Shown here piece after piece: positions 37,101 through 46,100 of a stretch of DNA of 64,000 nucleotides; position 1 is the stretch's first letter, and each line of letters opens with the position of its first letter. The notes under the pieces are model-generated. The model searched no databases and was not told where the DNA came from. It saw only the letters and a program-made list of their open reading frames with translations. Made by a program: the position numbers and the translations under genes. The DNA comes from Owenia fusiformis. Lineage: Eukaryota; Annelida; Polychaeta; Sabellida; Oweniidae. Location: the NCBI GenBank assembly GCA_903813345.2, contig CAIIXF020000008.1:18586822-18650821 (forward strand), written 5' to 3'.

Positions 37101-40100
37101 CATCAGGAATCCCCAGGAAATTCGTTCGGTGCTTTTAAATGTTAATAGTTCGGTTGAGTTTTAAAAATAAATCTTAAGCACTTTATTTTTATTTTCTGCC
37201 ATTTTAGCCATTGTTCACTTTTGAGCAACACCATGTGAGCCCAGTACCCACGGTAATAATTAAGGGATGAGTGACAAAGGGGTGTTTAAAACAGGTGGCT
37301 ATTGCAATTGATATTTTAATGTAACTTTAGTATGTAAGAATCTTTTCATCAATAAAAATAACATCTTAGATATTACAGCTACATGTACAATGTGAGTGTA
37401 TTTAAAAATGTAGTACATAGCTAGTTCCATCTATAAAGATGTCTGATGACAAAAAGCTCAATTTTCCTTGATGTCATGGTCAATGGGACTTTAACACGTG
37501 AACTAATGTTTTTTATTTTTTTGTTTTAAAGTCACTTATAGCAAACCTAATCTAACAATTATCTCACTATATGCTTATGACATATTCATGTATACGTTGT
37601 TTGTCTTTTTTTCAAATCAACCCACGGAAATATCCAATACATCAAGTTAAAAAAGTGGTACGAATCATAAAAGCCACGTTGGGTGGCTTATTAGTAATTT
37701 TTATATGAAAAATCTAGAAATATTACCCAAATTAAACTATGACTATTCAAAAGAAGACATTCAAATCTATATTATGTAAAAAAAATCAAATTTGTCCGAA
37801 GCAGGGATAACGCTCAATTAGAGTGACGAACTTCGTTCTCCAAATCGAGAATGGTCTTTTTGAAATGCCTGCAACTTTTTCTCATTTGTGAGTTGAACCA
37901 TGATACTTGGCAAATAAATGTATCTTCGGATAAGCTTTAAAATGAAATATGACACATACTATGAAGTACATTGGTATGTTTCCGCCTAGGGGGTGTCCCA
38001 TACTTTCGAGACACCCAGTGCAGACATGTTTATTGATCAGCATTCAATAGATTTAGAAACAAGAAAATAAATAGAAAATTGTTTGTAGAAGTTAAAGGGA
38101 CAACTCTCTTTATTCTTATGGTACCTTAAGTAAGCAAAGACCCACCATTGTATGTGGTGTGTCATAGTTTCAAAAATTAATATATACTCTTCATCTTTTT
38201 GCTATAAGCAGGTATACCATGGGTGGACTTGGGGGCAATATATACTCAGTTATGAACACAACTCATTCATAGTTCACAAATATGCAACATGTCCATAGAT
38301 ACTAACACACAAACATTATTCATAATTTATAAATCTTTTTGAAGTATTGGTTGGCCCTGAAAAGGGCTGTTGGGTTTATATTTTTGTGGGAATTTAAGAT
38401 GGCTGCTACTCTTGACCAATCATATCTGAGGAGAGATCAGAAATGTCCCAGTCATCAAAGGTAGAATCAGCGTCAGTTGAGGTTGATATAGAATCACGTC
38501 GCTCTTTGAGTTGGTAGAACTTGCCAGCTTGCTGTGTAGCATACTTGTACATGACACACTTCAGTCCTTGTATAGTGTTGATCTTCAACCTCAGACTGTA
38601 AACAAAGGCAGATCTATGGTCGGCCTTGGCTCTGTTTAGTCGAACCCCCATCTGACGGATCTGATCGTCTAAGAGCAGAAGTTGATCATTGGCACGTCGT
38701 AACTTATTATAGGCGATGTGTAGCTCCATGTCCAGGAATTTGACATCAACAGGGGTGTCAATCTGCTGTTGCAGCTGGTCAAAGTCATAGAAGACATCAT
38801 CATCTGCTGTTGCTATATCAACCATGTTGTAGCTGCTAGTGTTGATCTATAACTTGTCTTGGATATCTCAGAGTTGTTGCTTTGTCAGAATTTCTAACAT
38901 GAATGATTTGAGACCATTCCAGACTGGTATTTATACCTCTCTGGCTTGATTGCACCTTGAGAAAGTCTACAATTTCTATCTTTGTCTGAAAGGATTAAAT
39001 ACAGGAAAAAATTAAATTGTTTGATATATTTTATTCCATACAATCAAGAAGTCTGGGGGCATGCCTAGAAAAATATCCCAAATTACAATTAATTTAACTT
39101 CAAAGTCATCACCGAATATTTTGATATTCTGAAGGGATTAACTACAGGAAAAAATCATTTTGTTTGATAATATTTTATTCCATACAATCAAGAAGTCTAG
39201 GGACATGTCTAAAAAACATCCAAGATCTCGAGAAACTGAACTTCAAAGTCATCAGAGAATATTTTGATTAGTGATTTATTTTTTACCTTATGTCTATTTG
39301 ATTATTTTATCTGAATTATTTTATCTTGCTAATCAAGTGAAGGAAATATAATTAATCCCTTCTCTGGATCCCTTCTTTAATTCACTGTCAATTTCCAATT
39401 CGTAACTATTAAACATCTTGACAGTTAACCAATGTTGTCCCTTTGAGTGGAGATGGGGACATTCTGCCAATCCATGCATTGTTAATCAGTGGTTAGCTGC
39501 CCTGGGCCGGGGGAAAGGGGGGGAGGGTTAGGGTGCGTTGGGCTAATGTTGGAAAGATTAGATTCAAGATTTCATGTTTTCCCTCCTCATATAAGCCTAT
39601 AGCCAGCTTTTGCCAAGGGAGGTTCATTGTCAGGGGCGTAGGGAGAGGGGATGCCCCTCCAAAGCTTGGCTTAAAAAATGTTGAACCTACCCTTTCAGGC
39701 AATTAATGCAAACTCCAAAATTTTGAGTTAATTTTTGTAGTATTTCAGTCATTTAATGGTTTTGATCACTTAAGATATTTGAACTACATGTAAAGATGGA
39801 AATATGCGAGATTTAACTTTATTTTGAGTAACAAAGACTAAGAATACAGAAAAACGATCTATTTTGAGATGGCGATAATAGGTTTGCACTTCACATTTTA
39901 GGCCTGACATACTGATCTAATACCATCAAAATTAATTCAATTGTACTTAGCAGTTATGTCCCTATCATTGAATATATGCCTAAGGTCTGTCATCAATATA
40001 GCCCGAGCTTGCGAGGGTTATATTACGACAGACCGTGTCTCTCCGCGAGTGAAATTAGGAAGAAATGAAACATGACGTCCCCATGAAGTCATAAGATTGT

Positions 40101-43100: not shown

Positions 43101-46100
43101 GTCAGTTTCGTTCGACTGCGAGAGCAAAATTGAAGCTGAGCTAAACGGTTTTTGTTTGTCGTAAAATTGACCTCATTTAACTGCGCCATCTGGCGAATGA
43201 ATCATTGTTTCGTGTCATATGATTCGTTGTTTTGTGTCACGTGACCTACCTTTAGACCTTTTGCCACCTATCGTAAGTTAATCGAATTAAAATGAAATTT
43301 TTCGATCCAAGAAGAAAATTTGCACAAAAATTATAAACTCCGCTTGACATAATCTTTGCCAATCTATCGTCTTCTTGATGAGGCACATCGGAACTTGGAA
43401 TTCAACCAAGCCACAAAAAGTATGTATTTTAGTTGTTCAACATGTTCAATTGTGTTAATATTTCCCAGAACTCGGCCTTTAAGGACTTTTAAAAGGAAAA
43501 CAGGGAGATATGTTTTGGAGGCTGACTAGTAAAGTGCCAGTTTGCACAGTTTCTGCAGTTATCCGAGAAGCTACATTAAATTTGTGTAGAAAGGATCTTT
43601 TAGAAGCTATTAGACTATATTGCCTCACAATATATATGAAAATCTAGGGTAAACACAGTGTTCCGGGTCACACAACTTCATTCGTAAATTCCTAATATTT
43701 ACATCTCATTCAAAGTCATACACATTTAAAGTAAGGCACACACACACTGTTTAAAGGAACATGTTGCCAAATTCATAATTCATAACTCTTTTTTAAGTAT
43801 TGGTTGGCCCTGAAAAGGGCCGTTGGGTTTATTTTTGCGGGGAATTATCGGTGGCTTCTACTCTTGACCAATCATATCTGAGGAGATATCAGAAATGTCC
43901 CAGTCATCAAAGGTCGAATCAGCATTGATTGGAGTTGAGATGGAATCACGTCGCTCTTTCAGTTGGTAGAACTTGCCAGCTTGCTGTGAAGCATACTTGT
44001 ACATGACACACTTCAGTCCTTGTATAGTGTTGATCTTCAACCTCAGACTGTAAACAAAGGCTGATCTATGGGCTGCCTTGGCTCTGTTTAGTCGAACCCC
44101 CATCTGGCGGATCTGATCGTCTAACAGCAGAAGTTGATCATTGGCACGTCGTAACTTATTGTAAGCGATATGTAGCTCCATGTCCAGGAATTTGACATCA
44201 ACAGGGGTGTCAATCTGCTGTTGTAGCTGGTCAAAGTCATAGAAGACATCATCATCTGCTGTTGCTATATCAACCATGTTGTAGCTGCTAGTGTTGATCT
44301 ATAACTTGTCTTGGATATCTCGGAGTTGTTGCTTTGTCAGAGTTTCAAACATGAATGATTGGAGACTATTCCAGACTGGTATATATACCTCTCTGGCTTG
44401 ATTGCACCTTGAGAAAGTCTACAATTTCTATCTTTGTCTGAAAGGATTAAATACAGGAAAAAATAAAATTGTTTGATATATTTTATTCCATACAATCAAG
44501 AAGTCTGGGGACATGTCTAGAAAGAGATCCCAAATCACAATAAATTTAACTTCAAACTCATCAGTAGAATGTTTTGATTAGTGATTTATTGTTAAACTGG
44601 GTTTATTTATTCATGTAGCTTTTGTGTGAATTTTGTTATCTCACTAATCAGGTGAGGGAAGTCAGAATTAATCTCTCCAAACTTTTTTATTCCCACTCCT
44701 TTGAAAGAAATCATCCCATTTGATTATATTTTGTTCTCTGCAGTCGAAAAGTCTGGAAATTCAAATACTTCAAAGTCTTCATAGCATCGGTTATCCATTG
44801 TTATTTTAAAGGATTTTAATCGATTTTTGAAGTAGATTGAGTTATTTTATTATGCTAATGAAGTGAATGTGTTCTGTCACTGTCAAATTCTAATTGGTAA
44901 TTTTTAGCGACAGTTAAGACATTGAATACATTTCTTATAAAAATCAGTAGAAAATTGTATAGTTTCTATGATTTTCCTTACATTTTTTTCATTTTCTGAT
45001 TTTATATTTCCCTGTTTTTTAACATGGACTTGATGAAAAGTTTTGATCAATGAAATATCAAAATTTAGACCAATATACATGTATTTCCAGCAAGTGAAGA
45101 AAACAGTCCCAACAAGAAAACCAAAAAGAAAGTGAAGAAAGTGAAAAAGAAGGTGGAAGATAAACAATCTGTAAGTAGCTGCAACAAATTATCTTGAATA
45201 TATTCTTTAGAAATTAGATGTCCTCTTACACCATAATCTTGAAAGTGTCCATTAATACCAAATGACTTATCTCGTATGACATCTCTCATAAAAAAATTAA
45301 AAAAAATCTCATATGCCTTTACTGGCTTGTATTTCTACACAATTTCAAATAGGCAGTCCTGTAATAAATATAAATAATTTCTCTTGAAAGTCCAAGAATT
45401 TGTCATTTTATGTATGGTTTTGCTTTTAAAGTAATGAAAGTTAACCTTATGACAAAATGGCACTTCTATTAATTGTTAAATGACAACGAAATATCCACTT
45501 ATTCATTGTCTATACACATGTCATATGAAATATAAATGATGTTAACATTATTTAAAGTGTTATATTTCACTTTGATCTTTTCCCTTTCAATTCTCAGTTT
45601 TACACCCATTAACCCATTAATCACATATTTTTTTACATACATTAATATATATAATTTCTTGCAGTATTCATTGTTTTTAACATTATATTTCAGCCTGATG
45701 ACAAACGTTTACTAAAAGAGGTAGGAAAGAACGGGGAAGGTAGTCCAGAGGAGGTGCAGCAACTTATAGATGAGGTAAGAGAAGCAAATGCTACTGTTAT
45801 ACGAACACACATTGATGGTTCCATCAATTTGCTGCCCTGATTTCTGAAAAATAAATATGCAAAATAAAAAATAGAAATAAAAATGCAAAATAAAAATACA
45901 AAATAGAGCAGAATTCAAAATATGGCATATTAAAACATGGACATAAAGATGTTTCCATCAATAATCAATGTTTTATTCACAGTCAAGAAATTATAGAATA
46001 TAAAGCAGTGTTTTTAAATCAATTTAATCAGTTCTCATGTATGACAAAGCAAATGATCTAAAATAATCTATAAAAAGACGATTTTGAAACAAATTATCTT

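Follow-up and report, generated by a model that had tools for sequence, protein, structure and literature searches.

Replication-dependent histone genes are named in a passage of PMC1924863 as the sole genes known to make mRNAs that end in a stem-loop and lack poly(A). The stem-loop itself is described in part of PMC2781718 as unique to histone mRNAs, and the protein that binds it, SLBP, as never implicated in directly regulating other genes, while an excerpt of PMC12775136 assigns poly(A) to all other eukaryotic transcripts. In the known pathway, as outlined in a section of PMC7026596, U7 small nuclear RNA (snRNA) pairs with the AAAGAG core of the histone downstream element (HDE), a core present in the mouse HDE, and CPSF73 cuts between the stem-loop and that element. 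A stretch of 64,000 nucleotides (nt) from the annelid Owenia fusiformis, here called the window, carries an array of three gene copies with the signals of this 3' end, together with a fourth, divergent relative, and the proteins that they encode are unrelated to histones. A first-pass annotation made from the letters alone had proposed a non-histone gene family with replication-dependent histone 3' ends; strong support for this proposal comes from the number of copies, the spacing of the signals, stem covariation, constraint on the coding sequence and the resemblance to the 3' ends of the genome's own histone genes. With a probability of roughly 0.83, judged from sequence, these would be host genes of a large, old and expanded small-protein family that uses the histone 3'-end pathway.

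The 3' end itself is known; what is new is to find it on non-histone families. No non-histone gene with this 3' end is described in the titles and abstract openings of the open-access papers searched, a body that leaves subscription journals mostly outside, and the passages on histone mRNA 3' ends found there report no non-histone stem-loop mRNA.

The array in the window

Coordinates are those of the whole stretch, and all features of the array and of the fourth member lie on the minus strand:

43858..44277, minus strand: array copy 1, intact intronless open reading frame (ORF) of 139 amino acids (aa), with predicted helical hairpin and acidic aromatic tail
43806..43821, minus strand: copy 1 histone-type stem-loop GGCCCTTTTCAGGGCC, starting 36 nt past the stop
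43786..43794, minus strand: copy 1 purine tract AAAAAAGAG, resembling a histone downstream element
44380..44387, minus strand: copy 1 TATA box TATATATA, ~110 nt upstream of the ATG
41159..41347, minus strand: array copy 2, truncated, one TGA inside the family match, 62-aa ORF, second half of the coding sequence gone
41119..41134, minus strand: copy 2 histone-type stem-loop GGCCCTTTTCAGGGCC, starting 24 nt past the stop
41099..41107, minus strand: copy 2 purine tract CAAAAAGAG, downstream of the stem-loop
41450..41457, minus strand: copy 2 TATA box TATAAATA
38406..38825, minus strand: array copy 3, intact ORF of 139 aa, 96% identity with copy 1
38353..38368, minus strand: copy 3 stem-loop AGCCCTTTTCAGGGCC, outermost pair broken, starting 37 nt past the stop
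38333..38341, minus strand: copy 3 purine tract, decayed, CAAAAAGAT
38928..38935, minus strand: copy 3 TATA box TATAAATA
20787..21155, minus strand: fourth family member, divergent, 122 aa, ~23% identity, without acidic tail
20692..20707, minus strand: fourth member stem-loop GGTCCTTTTAAGGACC, 79 nt past the stop, 34.4 bits with the histone stem-loop model RF00032 (gathering score 34)
20672..20678, minus strand: fourth member purine tract AAAAGAG

The three stem-loops that the first-pass annotation had placed 24-37 nt past the stop are present (at 36, 24 and 37 nt), and the two that it called canonical are identical in copies 1 and 2. In a covariance search of the window, the stem-loops of copy 1 (39.1 bits, E 5.7e-8, match span 43781-43826) and copy 2 (38.3 bits, E 1.1e-7) exceed the RF00032 gathering score, and that of copy 3 stays below it. 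The downstream purine tract is clear in copies 1 and 2 and decayed in copy 3; AAAAAGAG lies downstream of the first two stem-loops, its counterpart in copy 3 having decayed to AAAAAGAT. The frame of 139 aa, finally, exists in copies 1 and 3 and was cut to 62 aa in copy 2.

The fourth member and the genome-wide arrangement go beyond the earlier annotation. This member matches the 139-aa window protein with E 0.004 and a relative on contig C7 with E 3.9e-8, and no TATA[AT]A occurs in the 200 nt upstream of its ATG. A strict pattern of stem-loop plus AAAAGA found three matches in the window (43806, 41119 and 20692) versus none in 100 Markov-shuffled windows.

The family across the genome, beside its histone genes

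The genome comprises 498 Mb, with contigs C1 to C12 of 32-62 Mb each. Forkhead matches are spread over nine of these 12 and form tight clusters on C8 and C10, which fits the 12 chromosomes, the Fox genes on nine of them and the tandem foxQ2 duplications on two that PMC9539403 gives for Owenia fusiformis; the contig numbers differ from the chromosome numbers given there for Fox genes. The 139-aa protein has at least 76 matches at E<=0.01, mostly in local arrays, on C1, C3, C4, C6, C8, C10 and C12; the search scored the best candidates, so that 76 is a lower bound. The sequence past the stop was read for all 76 copies, with near variants of AAAAGAG allowed as the purine element. A perfect 6-bp stem-loop followed by the element is present in 66 of them, and a stem-loop with one broken pair (5 bp), again with the element, in three more, among them copy 3 of the window (38406). 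In 67 of these 69 copies the element comes 11-14 nt after the stem-loop, and the family stem-loop starts 24-268 nt past the stop. Several copies possess two or three tandem stem-loops, usually with an element only after the last; at C3:20047201 it follows both. A TATA box lies 60-130 nt upstream of the ATG in 67/76 copies, and the coding ORFs are continuous, so the description of these as intronless TATA genes was borne out, 'intronless' here referring to the coding ORF and not reaching introns of the 5' untranslated region. Between TATA and ATG, a segment reading about GTCATTACTGATCTGACTTGCCTAGCAATCACATCACAAC hardly varies across the arrays on C3, C6, C8, C10 and C12, perhaps as an initiator or for control through the 5' untranslated region.

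A combined pattern of stem-loop and element matches 172 sites in the 498 Mb and none in the reversed control, and its GGCCC-only form 61 sites versus none. Among the first 100 of the 172 sites, 45 are found on the strand of a family gene, no more than 450 nt downstream of it; 27 belong to the core-histone array of C8 (of which one unit, L128, was read), and 28 lie elsewhere. Chance palindromes are ruled out by the reversed-pattern and Markov controls.

The histone genes of the same animal provide the yardstick. Of 28 histone ORFs read (H1, H2A, H2B, H3 and H4), 26 have the stem-loop, which starts 21-34 nt past the stop and has an element of this kind downstream, as in GGCCCTTTTCAGGGCC-acccattacttacAAAAGAG; element variants include AGGGAG in the H4 gene of L128 and AAACGAG in the H2B gene of L035. 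No stem-loop was detected past the stop for H2B and H2A of L128, whose frames run on; that of H2A lies within its prolonged frame. TATA[AT]A is found at -60 to -98 in 18/28 histone ORFs, one of which has another at -120; of the ten without it, seven had less than 100 nt of upstream sequence, and the others are H3 of L128, H2B of L035 and H1 of L027. In L128, H2A runs opposite to H2B, H4 and H3, which share a strand; an annelid unit H4-H3-H2A-H2B in which H2A is likewise reversed is reported in PMC12153100, a paper on annelid histones whose main text, in the portion used here, makes no mention of the stem-loop.

This yardstick also bears on the RF00032 scores. The gathering score is passed by 34/76 family copies (three in the window and 31 in loci scanned singly), and the copies below it mostly have GGTCC or AGTCC stems. 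None of the core-histone stem-loops of L128, which have GGTCC too, exceeded the cut-off in a scan shared with the family loci. Because genuine histone genes of this animal fall short of the cut-off, a score below it is no evidence against a copy. The genome-wide RF00032 list, for which 75 of 98,227 first-look candidates were scored, includes only 18 of the 76 family copies.

Conservation is concentrated in the signals. In an alignment anchored on the stem-loop, with one copy per array (19 representatives), information content amounts to 1.76 bits/site in the stem-loop, 1.31 in the element and 1.01 in the spacer between them, compared with 0.26 in the upstream and 0.46 in the further downstream flank. 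Covariation was assessed on 50 distinct stem-loops, identical 28-mers having been dropped and seven copies without a scored stem-loop excluded. In this set, 99% of pair cells are paired, and both sides have changed in 14 cells, at pair 1 (GC, AU, UA) and pair 3 (UA, CG). The stem covariation score of 0.167 exceeds the shuffled mean of 0.076, with none of 500 shuffles as high.

The coding sequences of the family are under purifying selection. With proteins shorter than 115 aa and pairs with a synonymous rate (dS) of 0.02 or less, or not finite, excluded, the median ratio of nonsynonymous to synonymous rates (dN/dS) has a value of 0.14-0.28 in 11 of the 12 array groups, two of which rest on one pair each; the remaining group, in which subfamilies are mixed, has a median of 0.44, and values for single pairs go up to 0.88. 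A protein tree was built from 77 sequences, proteins shorter than 105 aa being left out; in it, all five outgroup relatives and nearly all ingroup clades carry the stem-loop. Of the two copies that lack it entirely, one is nested within the tree and the other branches near the base. Loss of the stem-loop in these two is the simpler reading, though deep support values are low.

The predicted protein, the proposed processing pathway and their alternatives

Structure prediction gives the family protein two helices that form a hairpin, to which most members add an acidic tail. An AlphaFold2 prediction made with three window sequences has a long helix at residues 28-68 and another at 72-111, with a predicted local distance difference test (pLDDT) score of 91-98, with disordered ends, and the fourth member is predicted as the same type of hairpin (helices 13-71 and 75-120). 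Among 67 full-length copies (proteins of at least 115 aa), 65 have a net charge no higher than -5 across the last 30 residues, and 64 of those 65 tails include an aromatic residue (SEYSF, DDWD, DDEWD).

The histone-like features of the genes invite another explanation, in which the product is a very divergent chromosomal protein, related to histones or protamines, and the 3' end is then ordinary. Copy number, arrays, intronless TATA genes and the 3' end would all fit; the protein does not. Pfam gave nothing above cut-off for the family members scanned, with no histone family among the matches, and a PDB profile search returned three chains at E up to 1, none of them histone: two BAP31 coiled-coil chains (E 8e-5 and 1e-4), a match taken as coiled-coil likeness, and one further chain at 0.65. 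The predicted two-helix hairpin has no Foldseek match at E<=0.001 in the PDB or among viral proteins (BFVD), and its acidic tail is the opposite of histone and protamine tails. Since neither the histone fold of core histones nor the winged helix of H1 emerged from the Pfam, PDB or predicted-structure searches, a histone-like protein was rejected, in agreement with the earlier statement that no histone fold was recognisable, and this explanation is considered very improbable. A viral origin was likewise rejected, as the window protein has no relative in IMG/VR and no BFVD fold match at E<=0.001.

Tubulin-binding cofactor A (TBCA, PF02970), also a small helical protein, shows some likeness to the family. 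One member, L015, matches it at E 2.5e-4, and the TBCA structure 4cqi appears in Foldseek at E 0.47; however, the L015 match reaches 21.7 bits versus a curated cut-off of 30.3, and PF02970 is found at E<=0.1 in 2/14 members scanned. Homology was rejected because the match is below cut-off and coiled-coil likeness explains it.

Histone chaperones contain acidic stretches with an aromatic residue, which makes it reasonable to guess that the family protein serves histones, or other nuclear proteins of S phase, as an acidic partner or buffer. By this analogy, a role as histone buffer or partner is tentative and on the doubtful side, and the members without an acidic tail argue against it as the sole role of the family.

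The proposed pathway can be followed step by step. The host genes, encoding small intronless proteins, would be transcribed mostly from a TATA promoter, and their pre-mRNAs would enter the replication-dependent histone 3'-end pathway. SLBP would bind the stem-loop, the U7 small nuclear ribonucleoprotein would pair with the AAAAGAG element, and CPSF73 would cut between the two. By analogy with the known pathway, the mRNA would end past the stem-loop without poly(A) and would be regulated in the manner of histone mRNAs, with production in S phase or storage for the egg and the early cleavages. An SLBP RNA-binding domain (PF15247) is encoded in two exons on C5, and the family element shares the AAAGAG core of the mouse HDE. 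From these sequence features, the dependence on SLBP and U7, the lack of poly(A) and the expression in S phase, oocyte or sperm that the first-pass annotation proposed may reasonably be inferred.

Several observations weigh against the proposal of host genes in this pathway. The gene family is known here from DNA sequence alone. The number of pairs with double changes (two) is not unusual in itself, being matched in 205/500 shuffles. The stem-loop is wholly absent in 2/76 copies, at C1:29302165 (L074/L141) and C6:24490393 (L101/L142), and decayed, as judged by eye, in five more; the loss of the stem-loop where coding is kept, which the earlier annotation had named as the finding that would speak against it, is therefore complete in two copies and partial in these five and in the three with one broken pair. 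No TATA motif lies at the usual distance in 9/76 copies, seven of which have an intact or decayed stem-loop; both stem-loop-less copies also lack it, and these two may be polyadenylated variants, like replacement histones. Boxes noticed by eye ahead of the H1 genes (about TTCTCTAACGTCCGCG) and of the core histone genes (about GAATCCACTCATTTGCAT) were unseen in the family promoters, so S-phase transcription finds no support there; the frequent 7- and 8-mers common to family and histone promoters are TATA-type words and CACACAA. U7 snRNA was not found: the best RF00066 score was 24.2 bits versus a cut-off of 34, with 65 of 134,107 first-look candidates scored, and of two U7 patterns one had no sites and the other nine, versus 14 in the reversed control. 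A sole tandem U7 candidate, on C11, was rejected as a repeat without a U7 match. Since elements of this kind also occur on the genome's histone genes, the miss is taken as a failure of the search; it remains a gap. Finally, 25 of the 62 copies that could be assessed have an AWTAAA 24-224 nt beyond the stem-loop, a count without a computed background, which leaves room for fallback polyadenylation.

These hexamers, counted in copies with a perfect stem-loop (ten left out), are also what would be expected if the stem-loop were real and bound SLBP while the mRNAs were normally polyadenylated downstream, the element helping instead to store, localise or translate them, as in the egg for example. 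The imperfect or missing stem-loops of 10/76 copies would fit this arrangement, and polyadenylated maternal histone mRNAs of other animals, reported in part of PMC12803260, provide a precedent. However, the purine element past the expected cleavage site is kept at near-fixed spacing, and this conserved element speaks against a role of SLBP only, as SLBP binding alone would not need it. AWTAAA between stop and stem-loop, moreover, occurs in only 5/66 copies. Normal downstream polyadenylation is accordingly regarded as unlikely, and processing through the histone pathway is preferred.

Other carriers of the 3' end and the comparison with known systems

The genome-wide RF00032 list holds at least 74 matches, 73 of them over the cut-off, which fall into the following classes:

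18 adjoin family genes
25 are histone genes (20 H1, 4 H2A, 1 H2B)
7 are distant family relatives (six on C7, one on C8)
3 belong to a second family of small proteins (95-109 aa, helical by eye), and 1 to a further ORF of 80 aa
3 are RING-like zinc-finger ORFs
2 are SGNH hydrolase-like ORFs
2 adjoin transposase ORFs (L032, L067)
7 lie in a dispersed repeat
6 are without class

The RING-like genes (L062, L063 and L064, on C10) are small and Cys-rich and have the same 3' end; their zinc-finger label is weak, PF14634 being below cut-off, and six of eight related matches at C4:29.16-29.65 Mb have a stop inside. Two SGNH/GDSL hydrolase-like ORFs of ~220 aa (L030 and L057) end in stem-loop and element; one passes PF00657 and the other is below cut-off. 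Additionally, four genes of 104-110 aa near C8:27.03 Mb, with weak similarity to the family (E 0.004-0.016), all carry AGCCCTTTTCAGGGCT and the element.

Mobile sequences are represented as well. The L032 transposase ORF (Pfam DDE_3, E 3.8e-18) and L067, a transposase look-alike by eye, are each followed by a histone-type stem-loop and element; both are presumably Tc1-like. The dispersed repeat (L039, L040, L041, L042 and L043; also L046 and L049) includes five copies 98-99% identical over 744-878 bp, and these copies end in stem-loop and element. In L039 and L040, the pair scanned for them, more stem-loops lie upstream; the upstream stretches examined contain no ORF that reaches 60 aa. On contig C518, stem-loop sites repeat at 6.3-kb steps. 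There, L137 (C518:7100-13700), which spans an inverted junction, has a reverse transcriptase ORF on each strand (PF00078, E 6.3e-13; one scanned), from what we take to be a Penelope-like element. Its minus strand also includes an ORF of 251 aa that matches no Pfam family and has a TATA at -83, a stem-loop and an AAAAGAG element. A similar ORF with stem-loop occurs in L129, L132 and L133. By its sequence, a mobile element may thus use the histone 3'-end pathway.

These carriers are the grounds for a selfish origin, in which mobile elements took up and spread the histone 3' end and their genes were amplified into the arrays: the reverse transcriptase element with its 251-aa ORF, the DDE transposase L032, the look-alike L067 and the dispersed repeat all share that end. 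However, the family resides in local arrays with a median dN/dS of mostly 0.14-0.28, and its genes have an element past the expected mRNA end and a TATA before the start. Reverse-transcribed copies would be expected to lose both, and by the same reasoning retroposed copies are disfavoured. A transposon-borne family appears improbable beside one of host genes.

Elsewhere in the window, the minus strand includes a 286-aa ORF (10639-11499), which we take to resemble the U6 snRNA phosphodiesterase USB1, and a 100-aa ORF fragment (62772-63074), presumably part of a non-LTR reverse transcriptase.

Machinery believed to be histone-only probably makes other messages too. The range of carriers further suggests, with somewhat better than even confidence, that the pathway in this animal serves a non-polyadenylated regulon timed to S phase or the early embryo, which would comprise the hairpin family and its distant relatives, the family of 95-109 aa, the RING-like and SGNH hydrolase-like genes and some mobile elements. 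If the proposal for the hairpin family is true, a non-histone family of at least 76 copies shows that the pathway can recruit new clients, and it makes it possible to test which effects (S-phase coupling, storage, decay) the 3' end brings about by itself, separately from histone proteins. Poly(A)-selected RNA sequencing, in turn, may have missed a class of genes here and perhaps in other animals.

Among known systems, the polyadenylated replacement histone variants, as treated in parts of PMC1924863 and PMC5011920, offer a loose parallel to the two single copies without stem-loop and usual TATA; it is a parallel of gene sequence, and some copies with a stem-loop are also without TATA. The replication-dependent histone genes H1, H2A, H2B, H3 and H4 form a second comparison. 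The family differs from them in its proteins, which are unrelated to histones, in its stem-loop, which is often farther from the stop (24-268 versus 21-34 nt), and in its promoters, where the histone upstream boxes were unseen. It shares with them the same or nearly the same stem-loop, an AAAAGAG-type element ~13 nt further on, and genes that are intronless, multicopy and mostly equipped with a TATA box, a layout that is the same in the histone genes of this genome.

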